From positions 1-38,056 of the forward strand of contig NZ_LNDC01000018.1 in assembly GCF_001870905.1 (NCBI RefSeq): 38,056 bases of DNA. Direction: 5' to 3'. The notes under the pieces are model-generated. The model had not been told where the DNA came from, did not search any database, and saw only the letters and a program-made list of their open reading frames with translations. Source of the DNA: Geitlerinema sp. PCC 9228. GTDB taxonomy: Bacteria > Cyanobacteriota > Cyanobacteriia > Cyanobacteriales > PCC-9228. A program made the translations under genes and the position numbers. Shown one piece after another: positions 5,829-26,454 of this stretch (within the stretch, counting starts at the first letter, position 1; each line of letters opens with the position of its first letter).

Positions 5829-5958
5829 GCTATCCTTCTACGCTAACTTTTCAACAGATTTACGGATTGCTCGCTGCAATCCACCGATTAGATTATCATG
5901 CTTTCCACGTTTATTATACACAAAACACACATAATCCGGTCGGAAAATGGGAGATTTT

Positions 5959-6222
5959 ATGAAATTGATTTTGTACAGCAAGCCTGGATGCCACTTGTGC
6001 GAAGGTTTGCAGGAAAAATTGGAACAGGTGGAAAATCCCCAAATTTCTTTGGAGATTCGCGATATTACGACCCGCGATGATTGGTTTGCTGCTTACCAAT
6101 ACGCAATTCCAGTTTTGGTCCAAGAAACGTCGCCAGGAGAACAGGTGCGATTGCCTCGCCCTTCTCCGGGGATTTCTGTGGAACGGTTGGCGAGGATGTT
6201 GCGCGAGTATGAGCAGGGGTGA
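5959..6222 (+). CDS. Glutaredoxin-like thiol protein (DUF836 family)
   Basis: A small thioredoxin-fold protein beginning MKLILYSKPGCHLCEG, with a CxxC redox pair (CHLC) and the cis-Pro region IPVLV. This is the pattern of the cyanobacterial glutaredoxin family/DUF836 proteins. I chose ATG 5959 (87 residues) because GGGAG lies at correct spacing just upstream and the family starts at this point. An in-frame ATG at 5947 would add only MGDF. The role is presumed thiol-disulfide exchange, and the partner is unknown. It faces away from cysH, an enzyme that needs thiol reductants, but co-function is only suggested by position. Confidence 0.85.
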   Translation: MKLILYSKPGCHLCEGLQEKLEQVENPQISLEIRDITTRDDWFAAYQYAIPVLVQETSPGEQVRLPRPSPGISVERLARMLREYEQG

Positions 6223-6344: not shown

Positions 6345-7835
6345 ATGGAACTTCAAGAATTGTTGGATGTAATCTCCGATCGCATTGGTTTGGCAGAAGT
6401 TCCCCAGGTGACGGGGGATGTGAAACGCCTATGCACAAATTCCCACATTTGTCAACAGGGAGATTTATTTTTGGGCATGCCAGGTACGCGGGTTGATGGG
6501 GGTGAGTTTTGGCAGGGAGCGATCGCTTCGGGGGCGATCGCAGCTTTGGTCTCTCGCCAGGCTTACCAGCAGGTTCCCCCACAATTTCAGGAAATAGTGA
6601 TTCCGGTAGATGATATGGTCGCTGCCTGCGCGGAGGTGGCGGCGGCATTTTACGGGCATCCTACCCAAAAACTACGCATGGTGGGCGTGACGGGAACCAA
6701 TGGCAAAACCACCACCACTCACTTAATTGAGTTTCTATTGCAAAAGGCGCAGCAACCAACGGCTTTGTTAGGAACGCTGTATGCCCGCTGGCCGCACCAT
6801 CAGGAAACAGCAGTTCATACCACCCCTTTTGCCGATCGGTTGCAACAGCAGCTGTCCCAGGCTTACGCAGCGGGGGCGCGGTCGATGGTGATGGAGGTGA
6901 GTTCCCACGCCTTGCAGCAGGGGCGGGTGTTGGGCTGTCAGTTCGACGTAGCGGTGTTTACCAACCTCAGCCAAGACCATCTAGATTTTCACAAAACCAT
7001 GGAAAATTATTTCGAGGCCAAGGCGTTGCTGTTTTCTAAAGGGTATTTGCGGGGTCAGGCAATCGTTAATGTGGATGATGCCTACGGCCAGCGTTTGTTG
7101 GAACGGTTGGATCCGCAGTCGGTTTGGCGCTACAGCTTGACCGATAGCAGCGTGGAATTGTATCCCTACGATTTGCATTTGCATCCCGATGGGGTGACAG
7201 GGAAAATCCATACGCCTCACGGAGAGGCAGATTTATCGCTACCGGCGATTGGACGATACAACCTAGCCAATGCCCTAGCAGCGGTGGGGGCAGCATTGCA
7301 ATTGGGAGCAGATCTAGAAGCGATCGCGGCGGCGTTGCCCCAATTTCAGGGAGTTCCGGGGCGAATGGAAAAAGTCCAGGCAGACCCCAACCAGGATCTC
7401 ACCGTGGTAGTGGATTACGCCCACACCCCCGATAGTTTGGAAAATGTCTTGCAAGCCATGCGACCCTACGTAGCGCGAGAGTTGGTGTGTGTCTTTGGCT
7501 GCGGAGGCGATCGCGATCGGGGCAAACGTCCCATCATGGGGCAAATTGCCGCGCAACTGGCAGACCGGGTGGTGGTGACTTCCGACAATCCCAGAACCGA
7601 AGACCCGGAAACCATTTTGCAAGATATCTTGCAAGGCATTCCCGAAGGGGTTTCTCCCGAAGTAATTTGCGATCGCGCTAGTGCCATTTCCCATGCCATC
7701 CAAACCGCCCAGCCAGGGGATAGCGTTGCCATTGTTGGCAAAGGTCACGAAGACTATCAAATTATTGGTACGGAAAAAATTCATTTTGACGACCGCGAAC
7801 AGGCGCTCCAGGCACTCCGAGAAAGGAATTGGTAG
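6345..7835 (+). CDS. murE: UDP-MurNAc-L-Ala-D-Glu:meso-diaminopimelate ligase MurE
   Basis: This cytoplasmic ATP-dependent ligase adds meso-diaminopimelate to the peptidoglycan precursor. The 496-residue product shows the N-terminal UDP-binding domain, P-loop GTNGKTTTTH (117-126), the Lys that is carbamylated in the family (K226 in YFEAKALLF), VDYAHTPDSL (356-365), the DAP-specifying DNPR (414-417) and a C-terminal KGHEDYQ segment. The DNPR motif points to diaminopimelate rather than lysine. The start ATG 6345 has AGAGGA with good spacing. It appears to be a single gene, not part of a mur/dcw cluster, as is common in cyanobacteria. Confidence 0.97.
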   Translation: MELQELLDVISDRIGLAEVPQVTGDVKRLCTNSHICQQGDLFLGMPGTRVDGGEFWQGAIASGAIAALVSRQAYQQVPPQFQEIVIPVDDMVAACAEVAAAFYGHPTQKLRMVGVTGTNGKTTTTHLIEFLLQKAQQPTALLGTLYARWPHHQETAVHTTPFADRLQQQLSQAYAAGARSMVMEVSSHALQQGRVLGCQFDVAVFTNLSQDHLDFHKTMENYFEAKALLFSKGYLRGQAIVNVDDAYGQRLLERLDPQSVWRYSLTDSSVELYPYDLHLHPDGVTGKIHTPHGEADLSLPAIGRYNLANALAAVGAALQLGADLEAIAAALPQFQGVPGRMEKVQADPNQDLTVVVDYAHTPDSLENVLQAMRPYVARELVCVFGCGGDRDRGKRPIMGQIAAQLADRVVVTSDNPRTEDPETILQDILQGIPEGVSPEVICDRASAISHAIQTAQPGDSVAIVGKGHEDYQIIGTEKIHFDDREQALQALRERNW

Positions 7836-8059: not shown

Positions 8060-9535
8060 ATGACTGCACTACCAGTTTCAGGGCTATCTTTATACCAACA
8101 AGCCTGCCAACACCAACCGCCGCCGCGGTCTTTGCAGCTAAGCCCAGCCACCCTCCATTCCGCAAAAACCGTGTTGGTGGATTGGTTGATGGAGTCGGAA
8201 CACTCCGCAACGCTGCTATTAAAATTTCCCCAAGGCAGGGGATGGCAAGTTACCCAAGACCGCTTGCTGAAAAAAACCGATGCGCGCCATCGCGTGTGTA
8301 TTTTTCAAGCCAAACCAACCACTCCCGATGGCGAGGAGGAAGAAGATATTTCCCAACCCTTGACTTCCCCATCAGATATTTTAGACAACAATTTCGCCGA
8401 CAATGGGGAATCTTCCTCACCAGTAACGTTTTTTTCCCTCTCTGCACGCAATCCCTACCTGCGTCGCGAATATTTTTTAATTGGCTATACAGAAACCACC
8501 TGCGGCGCGGTTATTGCCCATCGACCCCGTTCTGCCAGTGCTCAAACCCAGAAAAAATCCTATAAAGGACCGCTACTGACATTGCTTTCCCTAGACAGCC
8601 GCATGGTAAAGGCCTTGGTGGATACCTTGATGCCACTGATTCCCGAGGCGGAACGTGCTTATTTGCCTTCACCCGAGGTGCAGGCGTTCGGAAATAACGC
8701 CTTTGCCGAAATGTTGTGGTGCCAGCAAATCAAGCAACAAGAACAAGTGCGTCGCACCATGCTCAGCTACCGCCAACAAGCGCGGGAACTGGACACTCTA
8801 CAGAGCGAAAATACCGCCTTGCAAGAATCTCTCACTTGGAAGGATGAGTTTATCAACCAATTTTCCCAAGAATTGCGGACACCAGTCACCAATATGAAAA
8901 CTGCCCTGTCGCTACTCAACTCTGCCCAGTTGAAAGCATCGCAGCGGGAACGCTACATTCAAGCCCTCCAACAGGGATGCGATCGCCAAAATTCTCTCAT
9001 TGAAGGGGTTGTGGAACTACAAAGGTTGGAAACATCGGCACCACAACATCGGTTGGAACCCATTCACCTAGCGGAGGTAATTCCTGGTGTGGTCAGTACC
9101 TTTCAACCGGTAGCCCAGGAAAAATCCATTTCCCTGGCTTATACTATTGGCGAGGAATTGCCACCGGTGGCTTGCGTGGTGGGATGGCTGCGCAAAATTG
9201 CCATCGAACTACTGAACAACAGTATTCGCTTCACGCCGGAAAACGGTAGAATTTGGGTATATACCCAAGAAAAAGACGACAAGGTGGTCATTTCGTTTCA
9301 AGATACCGGCATTGGCATTCCCCACCGAGAAACTTACCACATCTTCGAGCGTTTCTATCGGGTTCGCCACCAAAATTCGGGATTTGAATCGCAAGGGGCA
9401 GGATTGGGGCTCACCATTGTACAGCAGTTGCTTTCCCACTGTGGCGGTTCTATTGCCGTCAAAAGTCAGGCAGGAAAAGGGTCCACTTTTACGGTAACCT
9501 TACCCGTATATCGAGATCGTGGCAGCGTTAGGTAG
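8060..9535 (+). CDS. Histidine-kinase-like sensor with Gln in place of the H-box His
   Basis: The 491-residue protein has a soluble N-terminal region (about 1-200), possibly a DICT-type sensory domain, a coiled coil (about 225-262), a HisKA-like dimerisation segment and a complete HATPase domain. The ATPase has the N-box ELLNNS (383-388), G1 DTGIGI (415-420), F-box FERFYR (429-434) and G2 GAGLGL (446-451). The H-box reads FSQELRTP: residue 270 is Gln (codon CAA) where the phosphorylated His normally sits. So it may bind ATP but cannot autophosphorylate at the usual site. No transmembrane segment is seen. The GUN4-domain gene begins 1 bp after its stop. The DICT assignment is tentative. Confidence 0.85.
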   Translation: MTALPVSGLSLYQQACQHQPPPRSLQLSPATLHSAKTVLVDWLMESEHSATLLLKFPQGRGWQVTQDRLLKKTDARHRVCIFQAKPTTPDGEEEEDISQPLTSPSDILDNNFADNGESSSPVTFFSLSARNPYLRREYFLIGYTETTCGAVIAHRPRSASAQTQKKSYKGPLLTLLSLDSRMVKALVDTLMPLIPEAERAYLPSPEVQAFGNNAFAEMLWCQQIKQQEQVRRTMLSYRQQARELDTLQSENTALQESLTWKDEFINQFSQELRTPVTNMKTALSLLNSAQLKASQRERYIQALQQGCDRQNSLIEGVVELQRLETSAPQHRLEPIHLAEVIPGVVSTFQPVAQEKSISLAYTIGEELPPVACVVGWLRKIAIELLNNSIRFTPENGRIWVYTQEKDDKVVISFQDTGIGIPHRETYHIFERFYRVRHQNSGFESQGAGLGLTIVQQLLSHCGGSIAVKSQAGKGSTFTVTLPVYRDRGSVR

Positions 9536-9536
9536 T

Positions 9537-10028
9537 ATGAGACAGGGAGCAAGTGTCGATTGCAGCTACTTACACCAGTTATTAGTTGCAGAAAACTGGC
9601 AACAAGCCGACCGGGAAACCGCCGCCCTGATGCTACGCGCGGCAGGCAAACCCGACCAAAATTGGTTGGACAATGCTGATGTGGAAAACTTTTCTCGCTC
9701 GTTTTTACAAACCATCGATCGCTTGTGGGTAAAACATTCCCAAGGGAAATTTGGTTTTAGCGTCCAGTACCAAATTTGGCAGGAGTTGGGCGGTTGTATT
9801 GATTGGGAAACTACCTGCCACCTGGGCGATCGCTTGGGATGGCGTCAGGGCGATCGCTGGTTGAGTCTCCAGCAAATTCACTTTTACCAGGACGAATCTA
9901 CGCCACGGGGGCATTTGCCTTGGATAACTTGGTGCCATCTTTGGTTTTGGGGCGGTGCCATGGGGATTTTATTCTCCCCTTTGCTGACCCGATGGCATAC
10001 CAATCAAGACGAATTCTCAATTTTTTGA
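9537..10028 (+). CDS. Stand-alone GUN4-domain protein
   Basis: The 163-residue product is nearly all GUN4 domain: the block AENWQQADRETAALML, then WLDNADVENF, IDRLWVKHSQGKFGFSVQ, GDRLGWR and GHLPW match the family. GUN4 proteins bind protoporphyrin IX and Mg-protoporphyrin and, in the true Gun4, stimulate magnesium chelatase. Here the extra N-terminal helical domain of the chelatase-associated cyanobacterial Gun4 is missing, so this may be a porphyrin-sensing paralogue. I chose ATG 9537, one base past the kinase stop, over GTG 9519, which overlaps the kinase gene. The tight spacing suggests translational coupling. A strong hairpin follows the gene. Confidence 0.88.
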   Translation: MRQGASVDCSYLHQLLVAENWQQADRETAALMLRAAGKPDQNWLDNADVENFSRSFLQTIDRLWVKHSQGKFGFSVQYQIWQELGGCIDWETTCHLGDRLGWRQGDRWLSLQQIHFYQDESTPRGHLPWITWCHLWFWGGAMGILFSPLLTRWHTNQDEFSIF

Positions 10029-10305: not shown

Positions 10306-11607
10306 TTACCGATAATCCTGGCTTTGAATATCCCGCAAGCGTGCTTCCGGACGCAGGAACCGGTCCATTTGCGCTTCAAAAAAGCGGCGATTGGCCATTA
10401 AATGTTCCGGATTGGGGTCGTCGAGGGGATACAGCAGGGCCGTTCGCAGGGCTTGAATCACTGCAGAAGTGACGCAATACATGGAACGCTGGAACGTAAT
10501 CCCCAATTGGATGAGCATATCGTCCTCCTTGCGACAGTGCTGGCGGTAGTAGTCCACCAGATAGTCCGGCAAGAAGTGATACATATCTTGCATTAACAAA
10601 GTAGGCGGAATGCCTGCTGTTCCCACGGGAAATACATCCGCATAGAGAATGCCGTAGTGAAAATCCTTTTGCTGGTCGGGAACCTCCTTAGCTTGGGCAT
10701 TGTAAGATTTGGTTCCCCGAAAAGGGGCCGTCCGGTAAAAGACCGCTTCCACATAGGGCAAAGCCGCTTCGTAAAGCCACATAAACCCTTTGGATTTGGG
10801 GATGATTTCGTAACATTCCCCGTCGATGTAAACATGGTGGTAAATGGGGCGACCGGCAGCAATGAAAATGGCATTGACCAAGAAATTCATGGCATCGGTA
10901 ACAGTTTTAAATTCGCCAGCATCGTAGCGATCGCTCATTTCAAAAAACACCGGTGCCATCACTTCCCAAAACAATCCCAAATTGGCATAGTACGACATTT
11001 CCCGAACTTGTTCGTAAAACATTTCCGGGAACAATTTGTACAGCCCCAGCATCAAAGGATTGTTTTTAAAATAGGCTTTAATGGCGCGATCGGCGTTGGC
11101 TTTGTATTCATCGCTTTCTAGATATTCGTCGAATTTACCCCCCATATTTTGATGCCAAAGCATGGCTTTCATACAGGCTTCGGCAAATTCCATATTAATG
11201 CGATCGTGATACCAATGGTGCAGGAGTTTGGGGATATTTTTCTTAGTCTCCCCTCTTTTCATAAATTCAATCAGTTCCGGATGCGCCTTGCCATCACCTT
11301 TTTGCCAAACGCGATAGTCGGCATTTTCCCCAGCGTAGTGATTTTCCAAATCCAAATATTCCTGGGGCAAAAAGTATTTAAAGAAAGGTACGGGATTGAG
11401 AAAAACCCGTTCGGCAATGTACAGCAAATCCCGCCAGTAGAAATCCATAGGAACGGCATAGGCTTTGTAAATGCCGATAATTTGCATCAAATTTTCCGGC
11501 GTATCCGGCAGCATAGCACCACCGGCTTCCAGGCGATGGATAATCTCCGCAAATTCGTGATTGGATGGGGGGATTTTGGCTTTAGGTTCGGCGATATTTT
11601 GCACCAT
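10306..11607 (-). CDS. CO2 hydration protein of the ChpX/ChpY (CupB/CupA) family
   Basis: The 433-residue protein matches the ChpXY family. It is the catalytic subunit that, with NdhD3/F3 or NdhD4/F4, makes the NDH-1MS complex converting CO2 to bicarbonate on the thylakoid or plasma membrane. Supporting stretches are FYWRDLLYIAERVFLNPVPFF near the N-terminus, WYHDRINMEFAEACM, YHHVYIDGECYEI and a C-terminal FLPDYLVDYY, many of them rich in His, Asp and Glu. ATG 11607 is chosen because GAGG lies six bases upstream; the longer TTG start at 11619 is unlikely. It follows ndhD with no real gap. I cannot tell ChpX from ChpY by eye. The lack of a cupS-like gene downstream slightly favours the constitutive ChpX (CupB) type. 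Confidence 0.92.
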   Translation of the reverse strand: MVQNIAEPKAKIPPSNHEFAEIIHRLEAGGAMLPDTPENLMQIIGIYKAYAVPMDFYWRDLLYIAERVFLNPVPFFKYFLPQEYLDLENHYAGENADYRVWQKGDGKAHPELIEFMKRGETKKNIPKLLHHWYHDRINMEFAEACMKAMLWHQNMGGKFDEYLESDEYKANADRAIKAYFKNNPLMLGLYKLFPEMFYEQVREMSYYANLGLFWEVMAPVFFEMSDRYDAGEFKTVTDAMNFLVNAIFIAAGRPIYHHVYIDGECYEIIPKSKGFMWLYEAALPYVEAVFYRTAPFRGTKSYNAQAKEVPDQQKDFHYGILYADVFPVGTAGIPPTLLMQDMYHFLPDYLVDYYRQHCRKEDDMLIQLGITFQRSMYCVTSAVIQALRTALLYPLDDPNPEHLMANRRFFEAQMDRFLRPEARLRDIQSQDYR

Positions 11608-11622
11608 AGTTGACCTCAAAAG

Positions 11623-13128
11623 TTACTGCTTTTCTTCCCAAACAACAGCCACTTGTTCGCTAGGGGACTCGTAGAGATTGGCTGCCAAATTGTTGGTGGT
11701 GGTTTCCATCCAGCTAACCAACCAATTGGGTTGAATGCCCAGAAAGAAAATGGTTGCCGCTAGAATGTAGGCGGGAATTCTTTCAGACCGGGTTACTTGT
11801 GGGTAGTAGGCGCGTTGGTTGTCTAATTTGCCAAAACAAGTGCGGTTGAGCAGAATCACGAAATAGACAGCGGTCAAGCCGGAAGCGATAATACAAACCA
11901 GCGTGGGAATGGGGAAAATGGAGAAACTTCCTTGGAAAATGATAAATTCCGCTGCGAATCCCACCAAGCCAGGAATGCCTGCACTAGCCATCCCCGCTAC
12001 AATCAACAAAGCACTGGTGAGGGGTAAACCGCGGATGGGATTGAGCAAACCATTGAGAACGCCGCGATCGCGGGTACCAGCTTTGACTTCTACAATCCCC
12101 ACCAAATGGAACAGCAGAGCGAGAATCAATCCGTGGCTCACCATTTGCGCCACCGAACCCAGAATACTCAAACGAGTACCAGCGGCAGCAGCCACCAAGA
12201 TATATCCCATGTGACCGATGGAACTGTAAGCCACCATGCGTTTGATATCTGTTTGTGCGATCGCGCAGACAGCACCGTAAACCACGCTCAGGGTTCCCAC
12301 TGCTGCCAATCCGGGGGCAACCAAGGACCAAGCCTCTGGGAACAATCCCAAACCAAAACGAACCAATCCGTAAGTTCCCAACTTGGCTAAAATACCGCCC
12401 AACAAAATCGCAATCGGGGGCGATGCCTCCACGTAAGCATCGGGCAACCAAGTATGTAAGGGAACCAGCGGAATTTTGATACCAAAACCCACCAGCAGCA
12501 AGCTAAGGAACAACAATTGTGCTTGGAGGGCAAAGCCTTGGGTAGCAATTTCGCTATAGTCAAAGCTACTGGCATCGCTCAGCAAAGTCATACCAAAGAA
12601 AGCCGCCAGAACCAACAAACCGGATACGGCGGTATAAAGTAGGAACTTCATGGAGGCGTAGCCGCGCTTTTCACCGCCCCAAATGCCCACAAGCAGGTAA
12701 AACGGAATCAGTTCCAACTCGTAAAATAGGACGAACAAGAGCAAGTTCTGAGCCAGAAGCGCGCCCATAATCCCGGCGCTAGCTAGGAAAATTAAGGCAT
12801 AGTATAGGCGAACGCGGGGTAGGTTGGTATCGCTACAGAGAATGGCAATCCAAGTTAGCAAAGCGCCCAGAACCACTAAGGGCATGGATAGACCATCGAC
12901 GGCCAAACTGTAGCTTAGTCCTACCAGTTCCACCCACCAGTAATGTTCGCTAAATTGCAGTTCGGGGCTGGTGATGTCGAAGCCAGCCAACAACCACAGC
13001 GACCAACCAAGTAAGGCGATCGCAACGACTTGGGAAATGTTTCTGACCGTGGCAGCGTTGACCGATTTCGGCAAAACCGCGATCGCGATCGCCGCCACCA
13101 GAGGAATGGCAATCAGGGCACTTAGCAT
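11623..13128 (-). CDS. ndhD: NADH dehydrogenase-like subunit NdhD (D3/D4 CO2-uptake type)
   Basis: A 501-residue proton-pumping membrane subunit, homologous to complex I NuoM, with about 14 predicted transmembrane helices. Typical stretches are LLFVLFYELELIPFYLLVGIWG, the KIPLVPLHTWLPDAYVEASP motif and KRMVAYSSIGHMG. Conserved Glu and Lys residues of the channel are present in these segments. Its position between ndhF and chpXY marks it as the CO2-uptake form (NdhD3 or NdhD4) and not the respiratory NdhD1. Start ATG 13128 has AAGGA upstream at a rather long distance. The intervals are 31 bp to ndhF and a few bases to chpXY, so this is one operon. Confidence 0.95.
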   Translation of the reverse strand: MLSALIAIPLVAAIAIAVLPKSVNAATVRNISQVVAIALLGWSLWLLAGFDITSPELQFSEHYWWVELVGLSYSLAVDGLSMPLVVLGALLTWIAILCSDTNLPRVRLYYALIFLASAGIMGALLAQNLLLFVLFYELELIPFYLLVGIWGGEKRGYASMKFLLYTAVSGLLVLAAFFGMTLLSDASSFDYSEIATQGFALQAQLLFLSLLLVGFGIKIPLVPLHTWLPDAYVEASPPIAILLGGILAKLGTYGLVRFGLGLFPEAWSLVAPGLAAVGTLSVVYGAVCAIAQTDIKRMVAYSSIGHMGYILVAAAAGTRLSILGSVAQMVSHGLILALLFHLVGIVEVKAGTRDRGVLNGLLNPIRGLPLTSALLIVAGMASAGIPGLVGFAAEFIIFQGSFSIFPIPTLVCIIASGLTAVYFVILLNRTCFGKLDNQRAYYPQVTRSERIPAYILAATIFFLGIQPNWLVSWMETTTNNLAANLYESPSEQVAVVWEEKQ

Positions 13129-13159
13129 AGTCGAAAAATTCCTTACAATCCTTCCTCAC

Positions 13160-15022
13160 TTATGAAGAAATCACAATGGAAGCGTTGGACAGCAGCGACC
13201 AAGACACCATTAGACCAAGCAAAGCAACGCCAACGACAATGGTGAAGGCATAAAATTGGGTTTGCCCGGAAACGTTGTACCGCAAGCTCTGACCGCTAAA
13301 TATGGTTGCCAAGCCTACTAGATTTACCAAACCATCCACAACATAGCGATCGATCCAGGAAATAAGTTGCGAGACAATTCCCACAATGGAAACAATGGTG
13401 AAGCGGTACAGTTTGGCAGTGTACAAATCCTGAGCCAGCAATTCTTGCAAAAATTGCGGTTGCAAGCGTACGGGTTTTTTCCAGTTGGGGTTGAGATAAA
13501 TCAAACCGCCCAATTGCATGCCCATATATGTGGTGAGCAACAACAAAGCGATCGCTGGTTTGTTCAGGTCTTCCCAGGAGGGCAGCAAATTCCACTGCAA
13601 CAGGAATAAAGGCAAATGCAGGGCAAATCCCATTTGAATTGTTGTGGGCAGAACCATTGCCCACAGAACCTCCGGAGAGCGTTTGGTCATTTCCTGGGGC
13701 TGACCGGCAAACATCAGACCAAATACCCGGGTCATACCGAAAGCGGTCAAACCGTTCACCAGCAACACCACACCCACCAACAGGGGTTGGCTTTGCCACA
13801 GATTGCTAGCCATTTGCAACAGTGCCCAGAAACCGCCCAAGGGAGGAACCGCCACCAGAGAGGCAGTACCGACAAGAAAGCTCAGTCCCACAATCGGACG
13901 GCGCGACCACAAACCGCCGTATTGGGTGAGGTCTTGGGTAATATTGTTGGCAAGAATACAACCAACACAGGCGACCAACAAAGCCATGGCCATGCCATAG
14001 GTCAGCAGTAGAATATAGGCAACGTTGATTTCCCCGGTCCCTACGGCGATAAAAATCAAGCCCATGTAAGCGCTGGTGGTGTAGGAGAGGGTTCGCTTAA
14101 CGTCAATTTGGGCAATGGCAATCAAAGAAGTGCCAATGGCAGTAGCCGCGCCAATCGCGATCGCTGCTGACGTTCCCACCGAAGAGAGGGAAATTACTGG
14201 TTCTACTTGAATCAGCACCCACGCTCCGGTGGCTACGACAATCGTATTGCGCAGAATTGTAGCCGGAATTGGACCTTCCATAGCTTCGTCCAGCCACAAA
14301 TGCAAGGGAAATTGGGCGCATTTGCCCACCGGACCGGCAAGCAAAGCCAAACTCAGCAACGTAGCGGTGGTGGGAGACAAATCGGCGTTTTCTGCCCAAA
14401 CTGCCAACTCGCCGAAATCCCAGGTCCCCGCTAGGGGTAAGATGGCAACAACACCCATGAGCAAAATCAAGTCGCCCACCCGCTTGGTCAGGAACGCATC
14501 CCGCGCTCCGGTGACCACCAGGGATTGGTTGAACCAAAATCCAATCAGTAGATAGGTGCCTAAAGTGAGAATTTCCAAAACAACGTAGCTGAAGAAGAGG
14601 GAGTTGCAAAGCACTAGGGTACTAATGCCAGCTTCAAATAAAGCCAGCAAAGCATAAAATCGCGCCCATCCCCAGTCCATTTCCATATAGCCAATGGCAA
14701 AGACTTGGGCGATGAGGTTCAGACCGGCGATGACAATGAGGGCAGCGACGGTCATGACGGAAACCTTTACAGAAAAGTCAATTTGCAATCCCGCCGCATC
14801 CAGCCAGTTGACAGAGAAAAAATAAGGAGGGCGATTGAGAGTTGCTGGTAACGCCAGCACGCTGTGTACCAAGGCAACAAACGTGGTGATAATGTTAATG
14901 TATCCGGCGGGTCTTGGACCGGTACGCCGAATAATACCAGGAGACCACGGCAGTCCCAAAACTGCCCCCAACAGGGCATACAATGGCACAAGCCAGATGG
15001 TCTGACTGCACAGTTCTGCCAT
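13160..15022 (-). CDS. ndhF: NADH dehydrogenase-like subunit NdhF (F3/F4 CO2-uptake type)
   Basis: The 620-residue membrane subunit, homologous to NuoL, is the first gene of the operon. It shows many hydrophobic helices, the channel motif QFPLHLWLDEAMEGPIPAT and KRTLSYTTSAYMG. The form HLWLDEAMEGP followed by ILRNTIVVATGAWVL differs from the respiratory NdhF1 (usually [24 protein letters not shown]) and fits the NdhF3/F4 CO2-uptake isoforms. Start ATG 15022 has GAGGA six bases upstream. There is no adjacent ndhR/ccmR regulator gene, which often sits beside ndhF3 operons. Confidence 0.94.
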   Translation of the reverse strand: MAELCSQTIWLVPLYALLGAVLGLPWSPGIIRRTGPRPAGYINIITTFVALVHSVLALPATLNRPPYFFSVNWLDAAGLQIDFSVKVSVMTVAALIVIAGLNLIAQVFAIGYMEMDWGWARFYALLALFEAGISTLVLCNSLFFSYVVLEILTLGTYLLIGFWFNQSLVVTGARDAFLTKRVGDLILLMGVVAILPLAGTWDFGELAVWAENADLSPTTATLLSLALLAGPVGKCAQFPLHLWLDEAMEGPIPATILRNTIVVATGAWVLIQVEPVISLSSVGTSAAIAIGAATAIGTSLIAIAQIDVKRTLSYTTSAYMGLIFIAVGTGEINVAYILLLTYGMAMALLVACVGCILANNITQDLTQYGGLWSRRPIVGLSFLVGTASLVAVPPLGGFWALLQMASNLWQSQPLLVGVVLLVNGLTAFGMTRVFGLMFAGQPQEMTKRSPEVLWAMVLPTTIQMGFALHLPLFLLQWNLLPSWEDLNKPAIALLLLTTYMGMQLGGLIYLNPNWKKPVRLQPQFLQELLAQDLYTAKLYRFTIVSIVGIVSQLISWIDRYVVDGLVNLVGLATIFSGQSLRYNVSGQTQFYAFTIVVGVALLGLMVSWSLLSNASIVISS

Positions 15023-23955: not shown

Positions 23956-26454
23956 CTAAGCTGATTTTTCCGCTACCGGCTGCTGCTGGATAGGAATCTC
24001 CATAACAAACTCGGTTCCTTTCCCCGGTTCTGAATGACATGCAATCCTGCCGTGGTGTTTTTCCACCACAATCTGATGGCTAATCGCCAATCCCATCCCC
24101 GTTCCTTTATCCCTCGATTTGGTGGTAAAGAACGGTTCAAAAATCCGCTCGCGGTCTGATGCGGAAATCCCGGCACCATTATCTTGGATGCAAACCTGCA
24201 CCCAACCATTGCCTTCACCTTGCCCGATCGACTCGGTGGCAATCTTAATTTGACTGGGATTGGCTTTTTTCTCTTCCTGAGAGCGATGGCGATCGCGCTC
24301 TTCCAACGCATCCAACGCATTCACCAGCAAATTCATAAACACCTGATTGAGCTGGGAAGGATAGCATTCCACCAGCGGCAAATCGGCGTATTCCTTCACC
24401 ACCTGTACCGCTGGGCGATCGGCGCGCGCTTTCAACCGGTGATTTAAAATCAACAGGGAACTATCGATCCCCTCGTGGATATCCACTTCTTTCATATCCG
24501 ATTCATCTACCCGGGAGAAGCTGCGCAGCGACTGTACCAAACCGCGGATGCGTTCGGCACCAACTTGCATGGAAGAGAGAATCTTCGGCAAATCTTCCTT
24601 CAAAAACTCCAGGTCAATTTCCTCAGCATCGGCAGCAATTTCTTCCCCAGGATCGGGATAGTGCTGCTGGTACATTTCCACCAAATCAATCAAATCTTGA
24701 GCGTAGGTATCCGCATGGGAAAGATTGCCGTAGATAAAATTGACCGGATTGCAAATTTCGTGCGCCACCCCAGCTACCAACTGACCCAAGCTAGACATTT
24801 TCTCATTTTGCACCAACTGGGCCTGGGTGCGCTGCAGTTCGTCTAAGGTCATTTGCAGCTTTTCAGCTTTCTCCCGTTCCCGTTTTTCCGATTCTTGCAG
24901 GGCTTTATTGATTTGAGCTAGTTTCTGAAACTGATGCAGCACAATTTTGATAATGGCATTTTGCAGTTGGGTGGCCGCTTCGATTTCTCCTTTCTGCCAG
25001 GGGAGGGACTTGCAGCGGACCTGTTCTTTCCACTCCTGGAAGGAATTTTGCGGCGAAGGCTCGTCGTCGCTGCTGCGATCGGGTACGTAATGGGGATTTC
25101 TTCCCCAAGTAACCGTCTGGATAACTTCCGGTCGGAACCACATGACATATTGGTGGGGCGCGATCGCGATCGCGAGCAGTCCGCTGGCTATATCTTTATA
25201 AGTCTCCGCCTCAGGAATATGTTTGACCAGCGAATCGGTAGAAAACACATCTCGATGCTGACCATCCAGCCAGCGAGCAATATTTTCCACTTGTTTTTTC
25301 GACGGTGTCTTGCCCACCAACTTGCACTCGCCATCCAAACAAATGGCTGCCCCATCTGTCTTGCCAATTTCCAGGAGATTAGGCTGGTATTTCATCAAAC
25401 CATCCACAAAATTCCCTTCCTGGAACATGTACTCAATCAGCTGGTTTTGCACCGTTTTCAAGTGTAACTGGTAAGCGTAGTCCTCTTGATTTTCCTTGTA
25501 AGGAAGGTGTAAAGATAGCACTTGGGCTAAAAACTCGCAAGCCGTGCGAATTTCGTAGGGAATGTACTTGCGCTGGTAGTGATGGCAAGCCACCAACCCC
25601 CACAATTGCCCATCTTTGATAATAGAAATGGACATGGAAGCACTCACTCCCATATTTTGGAGGTAGCGCACGTGGCGCGGCGAAACGCTTCTCAGCACCG
25701 AATAGCTTAAATCCAGTGGCTGCCCGGTATGGGCGTGGCGTTCGGGAACTACAGAAACCGCTGCGTAGTTGGCATCGGGAATAATGCGCAACCAATTTTT
25801 CAAATACAGCGCCCTCGCCTGCGGGGGAATATCCGTACTGGGATAGTGCAATCCCAAATAGGAAGGAATATCCTGACCGCAGTCTTCTCCCACCACCACA
25901 CCATGCTCTTCGTGATTAAACTTGTAAACCATGACCCGGTCAAACCCAGTCAAATTGCGAATTTCCTTGGCTACAATTTGACACAAGCTGTGGAAATCCT
26001 GTGCCTTTTGAATCCTGGTTGCAGCATTGCGTACGGGATGGTACAGATCGAGAAATTCTAGAGATTGTTTGGAGGCGGTGGGTTCTAGTTCTAAAAATAG
26101 GGAATCTTGCGTACGGTGGAGAATGCCATTGTACCAACCATGTCCGCGGTGGGATGAAATGGATAGGGAAATGGGATTAACTTCGGCTAAGGTTTCTGCG
26201 TTCGCGATCGCGTCTTTGAGATTTTCCACCTGAAAGCGATTGAGCAAACAAGTTAAATCCTTTTGCAACAACGATTCCGCCGGCACGCCAAAGAAATCTT
26301 TGGTATTGGTACTAGCATGAAGAATTTGCAAATCCGGCTCTTGCAAAACCAATAAAATCCCGTGGGGTTGAATCGAACCGGGAATGTGAATGGGTTCTTT
26401 TTGACAGTCAATTAATTCTACAGTTGGTGACTCTAGGAGCGCGCTTTTACTCAC
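23956..26454 (-). CDS. Bacteriophytochrome-type sensor histidine kinase
   Basis: The 832-residue red/far-red photoreceptor has PAS (about 15-125), GAF (about 140-315), PHY (about 330-500), a coiled coil (about 510-550), HisKA with AHEICNPVNF (H565) and a full HATPase (DNGAGI, GTGMGLAI). The bilin-binding Cys is C17 in DCQKEPIHIPGSIQPHG, as in biliverdin-type bacteriophytochromes. The Cph1-type GAF cysteine is absent: the site reads SPRH (R260, H261). D208 of the DIP motif and H292 are kept. The PHY tongue reads PQNSF (468-472) instead of PRxSF. Start GTG 26454 has GGAG upstream. No response regulator is adjacent. Confidence 0.92.
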   Translation of the reverse strand: MSKSALLESPTVELIDCQKEPIHIPGSIQPHGILLVLQEPDLQILHASTNTKDFFGVPAESLLQKDLTCLLNRFQVENLKDAIANAETLAEVNPISLSISSHRGHGWYNGILHRTQDSLFLELEPTASKQSLEFLDLYHPVRNAATRIQKAQDFHSLCQIVAKEIRNLTGFDRVMVYKFNHEEHGVVVGEDCGQDIPSYLGLHYPSTDIPPQARALYLKNWLRIIPDANYAAVSVVPERHAHTGQPLDLSYSVLRSVSPRHVRYLQNMGVSASMSISIIKDGQLWGLVACHHYQRKYIPYEIRTACEFLAQVLSLHLPYKENQEDYAYQLHLKTVQNQLIEYMFQEGNFVDGLMKYQPNLLEIGKTDGAAICLDGECKLVGKTPSKKQVENIARWLDGQHRDVFSTDSLVKHIPEAETYKDIASGLLAIAIAPHQYVMWFRPEVIQTVTWGRNPHYVPDRSSDDEPSPQNSFQEWKEQVRCKSLPWQKGEIEAATQLQNAIIKIVLHQFQKLAQINKALQESEKREREKAEKLQMTLDELQRTQAQLVQNEKMSSLGQLVAGVAHEICNPVNFIYGNLSHADTYAQDLIDLVEMYQQHYPDPGEEIAADAEEIDLEFLKEDLPKILSSMQVGAERIRGLVQSLRSFSRVDESDMKEVDIHEGIDSSLLILNHRLKARADRPAVQVVKEYADLPLVECYPSQLNQVFMNLLVNALDALEERDRHRSQEEKKANPSQIKIATESIGQGEGNGWVQVCIQDNGAGISASDRERIFEPFFTTKSRDKGTGMGLAISHQIVVEKHHGRIACHSEPGKGTEFVMEIPIQQQPVAEKSA

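Follow-up and report, generated by a model that had tools for sequence, protein, structure and literature searches.

Pseudo-histidine kinases have mostly been studied as lone oddities. Among the described systems, ChpT and Spo0B combine a DHp carrying the His with a CA-like domain that does not bind ATP. DivL of Caulobacter has the HisKA-HATPase fold with a non-His phospho-site (Tyr550), is conserved, and is thought to depend on partners (PMC4211667). In Pseudomonas, signalling is altered when two different histidine kinases, RetS and GacS, heterodimerize (PMC12189002). For the cyanobacterial kinase Hik2, exchange of the His for Gln abolishes autophosphorylation labelling, and any single Gly-to-Ala change in G1 or G2 abolishes autophosphorylation, while CSK of the green lineage, in which the His is replaced, is reported to act in a Ser/Thr-kinase-like manner (PMC4751278).

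The window, the whole stretch of 38,056 nucleotides from Geitlerinema sp. PCC 9228 that was analysed, encodes a protein (A) comparable to DivL in its kinase fold and family-conserved non-His residue, which assign it to the pseudo-histidine kinases. A carries DICT instead of PAS, Gln instead of Tyr, and fully conserved ATP boxes where DivL binds ATP weakly. Unlike DivL, it is frequently encoded next door to a paralogue (B) whose defect is the opposite one. B, a putative phosphotransfer protein, resembles ChpT and Spo0B in its His-bearing DHp and lost ATP site, but its N-terminal region is long and DICT-like, and its kinase H-box is still recognizable. The A-B pair recalls RetS-GacS as a combination of two different kinases, but RetS inhibits GacS, and the complementary loss of His and ATP site is absent there. 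Hik2 is, like A, a soluble cyanobacterial kinase, but has GAF instead of DICT, retains the His and all ATP boxes, and has no link to murE. In the window, A and its parts are located as follows.

8060-9535, forward strand: protein A (491 aa), a pseudo-histidine kinase of the order DICT, long helix, HisKA without the His, HATPase_c (Pfam, 155-member alignment, AF2 model)
8084-8524, forward strand: DICT sensory domain of A, residues 9-155 (Pfam PF10069, E 4e-18; own-genome DICT search)
8840-9034, forward strand: HisKA dimerisation domain of A, residues 261-325 (Pfam PF00512, E 7e-10)
8867-8869, forward strand: codon 270 of A, CAA (Gln) instead of the phospho-accepting His (sequence, family column)
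9185-9508, forward strand: HATPase_c domain of A, residues 376-483 (Pfam PF02518, E 1e-25)

Gene calls are mechanical ORFs, and the homologue sets were chosen by similarity. The H-box stretch with Gln270 reads FINQFSQELRTP. An earlier sequence-only reading had noticed this Gln (CAA) and intact N, G1, F, and G2 boxes, and both observations hold in the ORF 8060-9535, the boxes being N387, D415xG417xG419, F429/F432, and G446xG448xG450. Its description did not include the N-terminal DICT, a known cyanobacterial sensory domain. In the single-chain AF2 model of A (mean pLDDT 88.6), the DICT domain is followed by an extended helix (214-286) and a DHp-CA fold of the ordinary kind, with no transmembrane domains evident. 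The best PDB matches by Foldseek are HK853 (E 6e-20), ATP-bound kinases such as 4u7o (TM(target) 0.82), and DivL (4q20). A therefore has the four ATPase boxes and the fold of a canonical HisKA sensor kinase, and lacks its phospho-accepting His.

The suspicion that the Gln could be a family-wide trait was borne out by the homologue alignment. Family A was assembled as 155 members, drawn from 24 relatives in the order, 80 named loci, 30 class-level loci, and 20 chosen lower-scoring matches. The residue-270 column contains 137 Q, six R, four L, four E, two A, and two H, so that the His is missing in 153 of the 155, including all 24 relatives found elsewhere in the order. Q or R also occupies the site in five additional, diverged members. 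In the window genome itself, all 37 other readable histidine-kinase H-boxes (among the 40 best-scoring regions) have His. Taken together, these counts indicate that Gln270 did not arise by chance, and the family-wide loss rules out a local loss in the window genome. The two members with His, L108 (Fischerella muscicola) and L192, have it (CAT) amid sisters with Gln (CAA/CAG), as apparent returns, so Gln cannot be an absolute requirement. When the residue-270 column was omitted from tree building, the family A branch had an SH-aLRT support of only 75 and the His/Gln trait needed three changes, which would fit one loss and two returns, although change counts leave the direction unfixed.

The ATP site is strictly conserved. 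N387, D415, G417, F429, F432, G448, and G450 are identical in 155/155 members, so that the site is under strong selective constraint and A is not simply decaying; the intact residues also argue against weak ATP binding. E271, the neighbor of the lost His, is kept in 151/155 and T274 in 119/155, with Ile, Met, Ala, or Gln replacing the latter in about 26 members. P275, A282, Y299, and E354 are invariant as well, and K280 and R298 are each found in 154/155. The HisKA helix NMKTAL..QRxRYL is conserved across the family, and most of the conserved DHp positions of A are variable in the ordinary kinases of its own genome. Judged by sequence, family A appears to consist of cyanobacterial, usually single-copy, soluble DICT pseudo-histidine kinases with a complete ATP site and no phosphate acceptance at the H-box. 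By the precedent of the Hik2 His-to-Gln mutant, A should not autophosphorylate on His.

The surroundings of A are also conserved, beginning with two genes upstream.

5947-6222, forward strand: glutaredoxin-like gene, conserved upstream of murE
6345-7835, forward strand: murE, the conserved upstream neighbor of family A

Among 75 loci with enough sequence, murE lies upstream within 2.5 kb on the same strand in 49, and the usual order is that of the window, with cysH on the other strand followed by the glutaredoxin-like gene, murE, and A. Synechocystis Hik10 (slr0533) presumably also lies near murE. However, the published scheme of Hik10 shows transmembrane domains (PMC3264485), none of which are evident in A, and Hik10 was rejected as a known member of family A.

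Downstream, the recurrent neighbor is a convergent gene that encodes B. Profile comparison aligned 365 columns of A and B, including half of DICT (99.5%, E 2e-23), which makes B a distant paralogue of A. Its defect mirrors that of A. The H-box HE[VI][RK]TP is complete in 40/40 B proteins, with His, E+1, and T+4 present in all 40, whereas G1 (DxGxG) and G2 (GxG) are found in 0/40 and the N-box Asn is kept in 26/40. Pfam finds HisKA in B, and HATPase_c at E 0.18 at best or not at all. The single-chain AF2 model of B is of moderate quality (pLDDT 72), and its best fold match is the RetS-GacS co-complex 7n0e. By their residues, A is ATP-competent without a His and B offers a His without ATP boxes, and the two together have one complete set of kinase parts. 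The Hik2 mutants suggest that neither should autophosphorylate alone. By analogy, B resembles the phosphotransfer proteins Spo0B and ChpT, and A may be one ATP-competent partner or regulator of it.

At 21 of the 69 loci from named genomes whose sequence extends far enough, A and B are convergent and no more than 3 kb apart, often with 3' ends less than 100 bp apart; such pairs come from at least 14 named families. About 0.02 such loci would be expected if the genes were unlinked, although the loci share ancestry and are not independent. An ancient inverted duplication may also have left the two genes side by side. The B gene of the window genome lies on another contig (C103, about 24.2-25.8 kb), unlinked to A, again with the His present and G1/G2 absent. 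Of 291 genomes of the class, 120 carry A at E<=1e-120 and 274 carry B at E<=1e-50. B was present in 119 of the 120 A-bearing genomes, the exception being a 1060-contig assembly. The Fisher p of this co-occurrence is 0.002, uncorrected for relatedness, and it says little because B is near-universal.

B is present even in genomes of 1.7 Mb. Among the source genomes of 30 B proteins, all chosen for having no A match at E<=1e-120, five proved to have a diverged A. The other 25 had B alone (E<=1e-55), still with the His and without G1/G2. B must therefore have phosphate sources other than A, unless A is a regulator, and an obligate dependence of B on A is ruled out. In two small-genome picocyanobacteria (L295 of G060, L296 of G109), a rodA-like gene is followed by B and then by psaD- and trpE-like genes. 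The rodA-like gene beside B and murE beside A hint at a link to the cell wall or growth. In a further genome (G111, L297, 3023-5903, reverse strand), B stands in a one-strand row with a HisKA-HATPase kinase of 238 aa and a REC-GerE regulator; the H-box of this kinase, HQLRNPLTAL, is Hik2-like.

That two proteins with opposite defects are so often encoded side by side points to their acting jointly as a single kinase. In the model that we favor, to which we give close to an even chance, A supplies ATP catalysis to the His of B in trans, within a hetero-oligomer under DICT control. We infer a physical association of A and B through their DHp helices, in which the DICT domains would sense a signal, the ATPase domain of A would phosphorylate the His of B in trans, and the phosphate would pass from B to a response regulator as the output. 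The broader possibility of a natural split histidine kinase, in which A and B must meet for phospho-His to form and B is a near-universal phosphotransfer hub fed by A where A is present, is held tentatively and somewhat short of an even chance. The sequence-only reading had proposed that A works as an ATP-dependent switch or acts through a partner, not by His phosphorylation; this core survives, with no His autophosphorylation expected and B as the most likely candidate partner, but the porphyrin signal that it attached does not. If true, a widespread, old pair of mirror-defect paralogues would be a direct, testable case of a homodimeric enzyme turning into a heterodimer, whether obligate or facultative. 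The perfect H-box of B, a protein found in nearly all cyanobacteria that has no ATP site, would then be explained, and the pair would add an unrecognized signalling layer in photosynthetic bacteria. Kinase counts based on HATPase_c or His alone may miss or misread proteins such as A and B.

The main competitor of transphosphorylation, which we consider rather unlikely but by no means negligible, is that A acts as a DivL-like, ATP-dependent allosteric regulator, whose shape would change on ATP binding or hydrolysis and whose DHp would dock onto B, another kinase, or a response regulator, with no phosphate transferred, while B, like Spo0B or ChpT, is fed by other kinases. The many genomes with B and no A favor it, as does the row in G111 with its short kinase and regulator. 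DivL, recovered among the Foldseek matches of A, is moreover a working pseudo-kinase with Tyr at the site, whose kinase activity is not needed (PMC4211667), and the long conserved DHp helices in the model of A may resemble a docking surface. However, DivL binds ATP poorly (PMC4211667), whereas the ATP-box residues of family A are 100% conserved and E271 97%. Pure docking would not need such conservation, and the invariant ATP site and E271 thus favor transphosphorylation from A to B. The conservation of E271 can also be read in another way. HisKA phosphatase chemistry uses residues H+1 (Glu) and H+4 (Thr/Asn) and does not require the His, so that E271 and T274 would suit a dedicated response-regulator phosphatase. 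The replacements of T274 should end this activity in the members concerned, which weakens a strict phosphatase role for all of family A, and we regard this role as improbable. That A is decaying and functionless is hardly credible: the catalytic His is gone and A is missing from over half of the sampled cyanobacteria at the strict cut-off, but the ORF and ATP boxes are kept in at least 14 families, and 17 positions are invariant over the 155 sequences.

An alternative of a different kind, which originated with the sequence-only reading, couples A to the gene that follows it.

9537-10028, forward strand: GUN4-domain protein, 163 aa (Pfam PF05419, E 2e-36; PDB 1z3x, E 3e-21)

Its ATG (9537) lies one base past the stop of A (TAG, 9533-9535), as described before, and this spacing suggests co-transcription in the window genome, where a lineage-specific joint use of the two genes may exist. 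On this basis, A and the GUN4 protein had been proposed to form a porphyrin-linked sensor, an idea that now appears very improbable. Among the about 155 homologues examined, an adjoining GUN4 gene is absent from every other family A locus, which rules out GUN4 as a conserved partner of A. With flanks of up to 10 kb, a GUN4 gene lies near only one of 80 other loci (L114, where it sits 1.6 kb downstream and runs the other way), and none is found within the 10 kb flanks of the nearest relative on the tree (Laspinema, L116). The neighborhood comparison that had been suggested as a check thus finds a pair unique to the window genome and points to a chance link. An own-genome search gave 21 GUN4 matches, which makes a chance neighbor of A plausible; if the genome is taken to have about 15 GUN4 and about 60 kinase genes, chance alone would give roughly 0.1 kinase-GUN4 neighbors. 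The matches, with contigs C21, C28, C48, and C149 among their locations, include several that are tandem or share one frame, and a few are interrupted by stops, so that the domain is amplified and partly decaying there.

At the bilin motif, the GUN4 protein beside A reads GHLPWITWCH (W-I-T-W-C-H at the motif), where Synechocystis Gun4 has GHLPLLNALR, and Leu stands in place of Trp192. The motif lost here, LxNxLR, is the bilin-binding motif of GUN4 (PMC10156173). With this key motif missing, porphyrin binding by this GUN4 protein is not expected, and we rejected it. A chlorophyll-type Gun4 with the motif (LSNQLR) is encoded on another contig (L001) of the same genome. The GUN4 protein beside A is closest to the GUN4 domains of longer proteins, a type reported in combination with kinases, caspases, and TIR domains (PMC7159879, PMC1262709). 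The GUN4 gene beside A is probably incidental and would stand outside the A-B mechanism. We found no description of a DICT and GUN4 combination or of an A-B pair in the open-access literature; earlier ones may exist elsewhere.

A promoter scan near the genes gave matches at chance level, and terminator-like sites fall inside the ORF. Convergent with the kinase-GUN4 pair runs a row of CO2-uptake genes (10306-15022, reverse strand), consisting of ChpXY, a CO2 hydration protein, and then two genes for NDH-1 subunits that by eye resemble NdhD and NdhF. Further along the window, a phytochrome-type sensor kinase with PAS_2, GAF, PHY, HisKA, and HATPase_c domains is encoded at 23956-26454 on the reverse strand.
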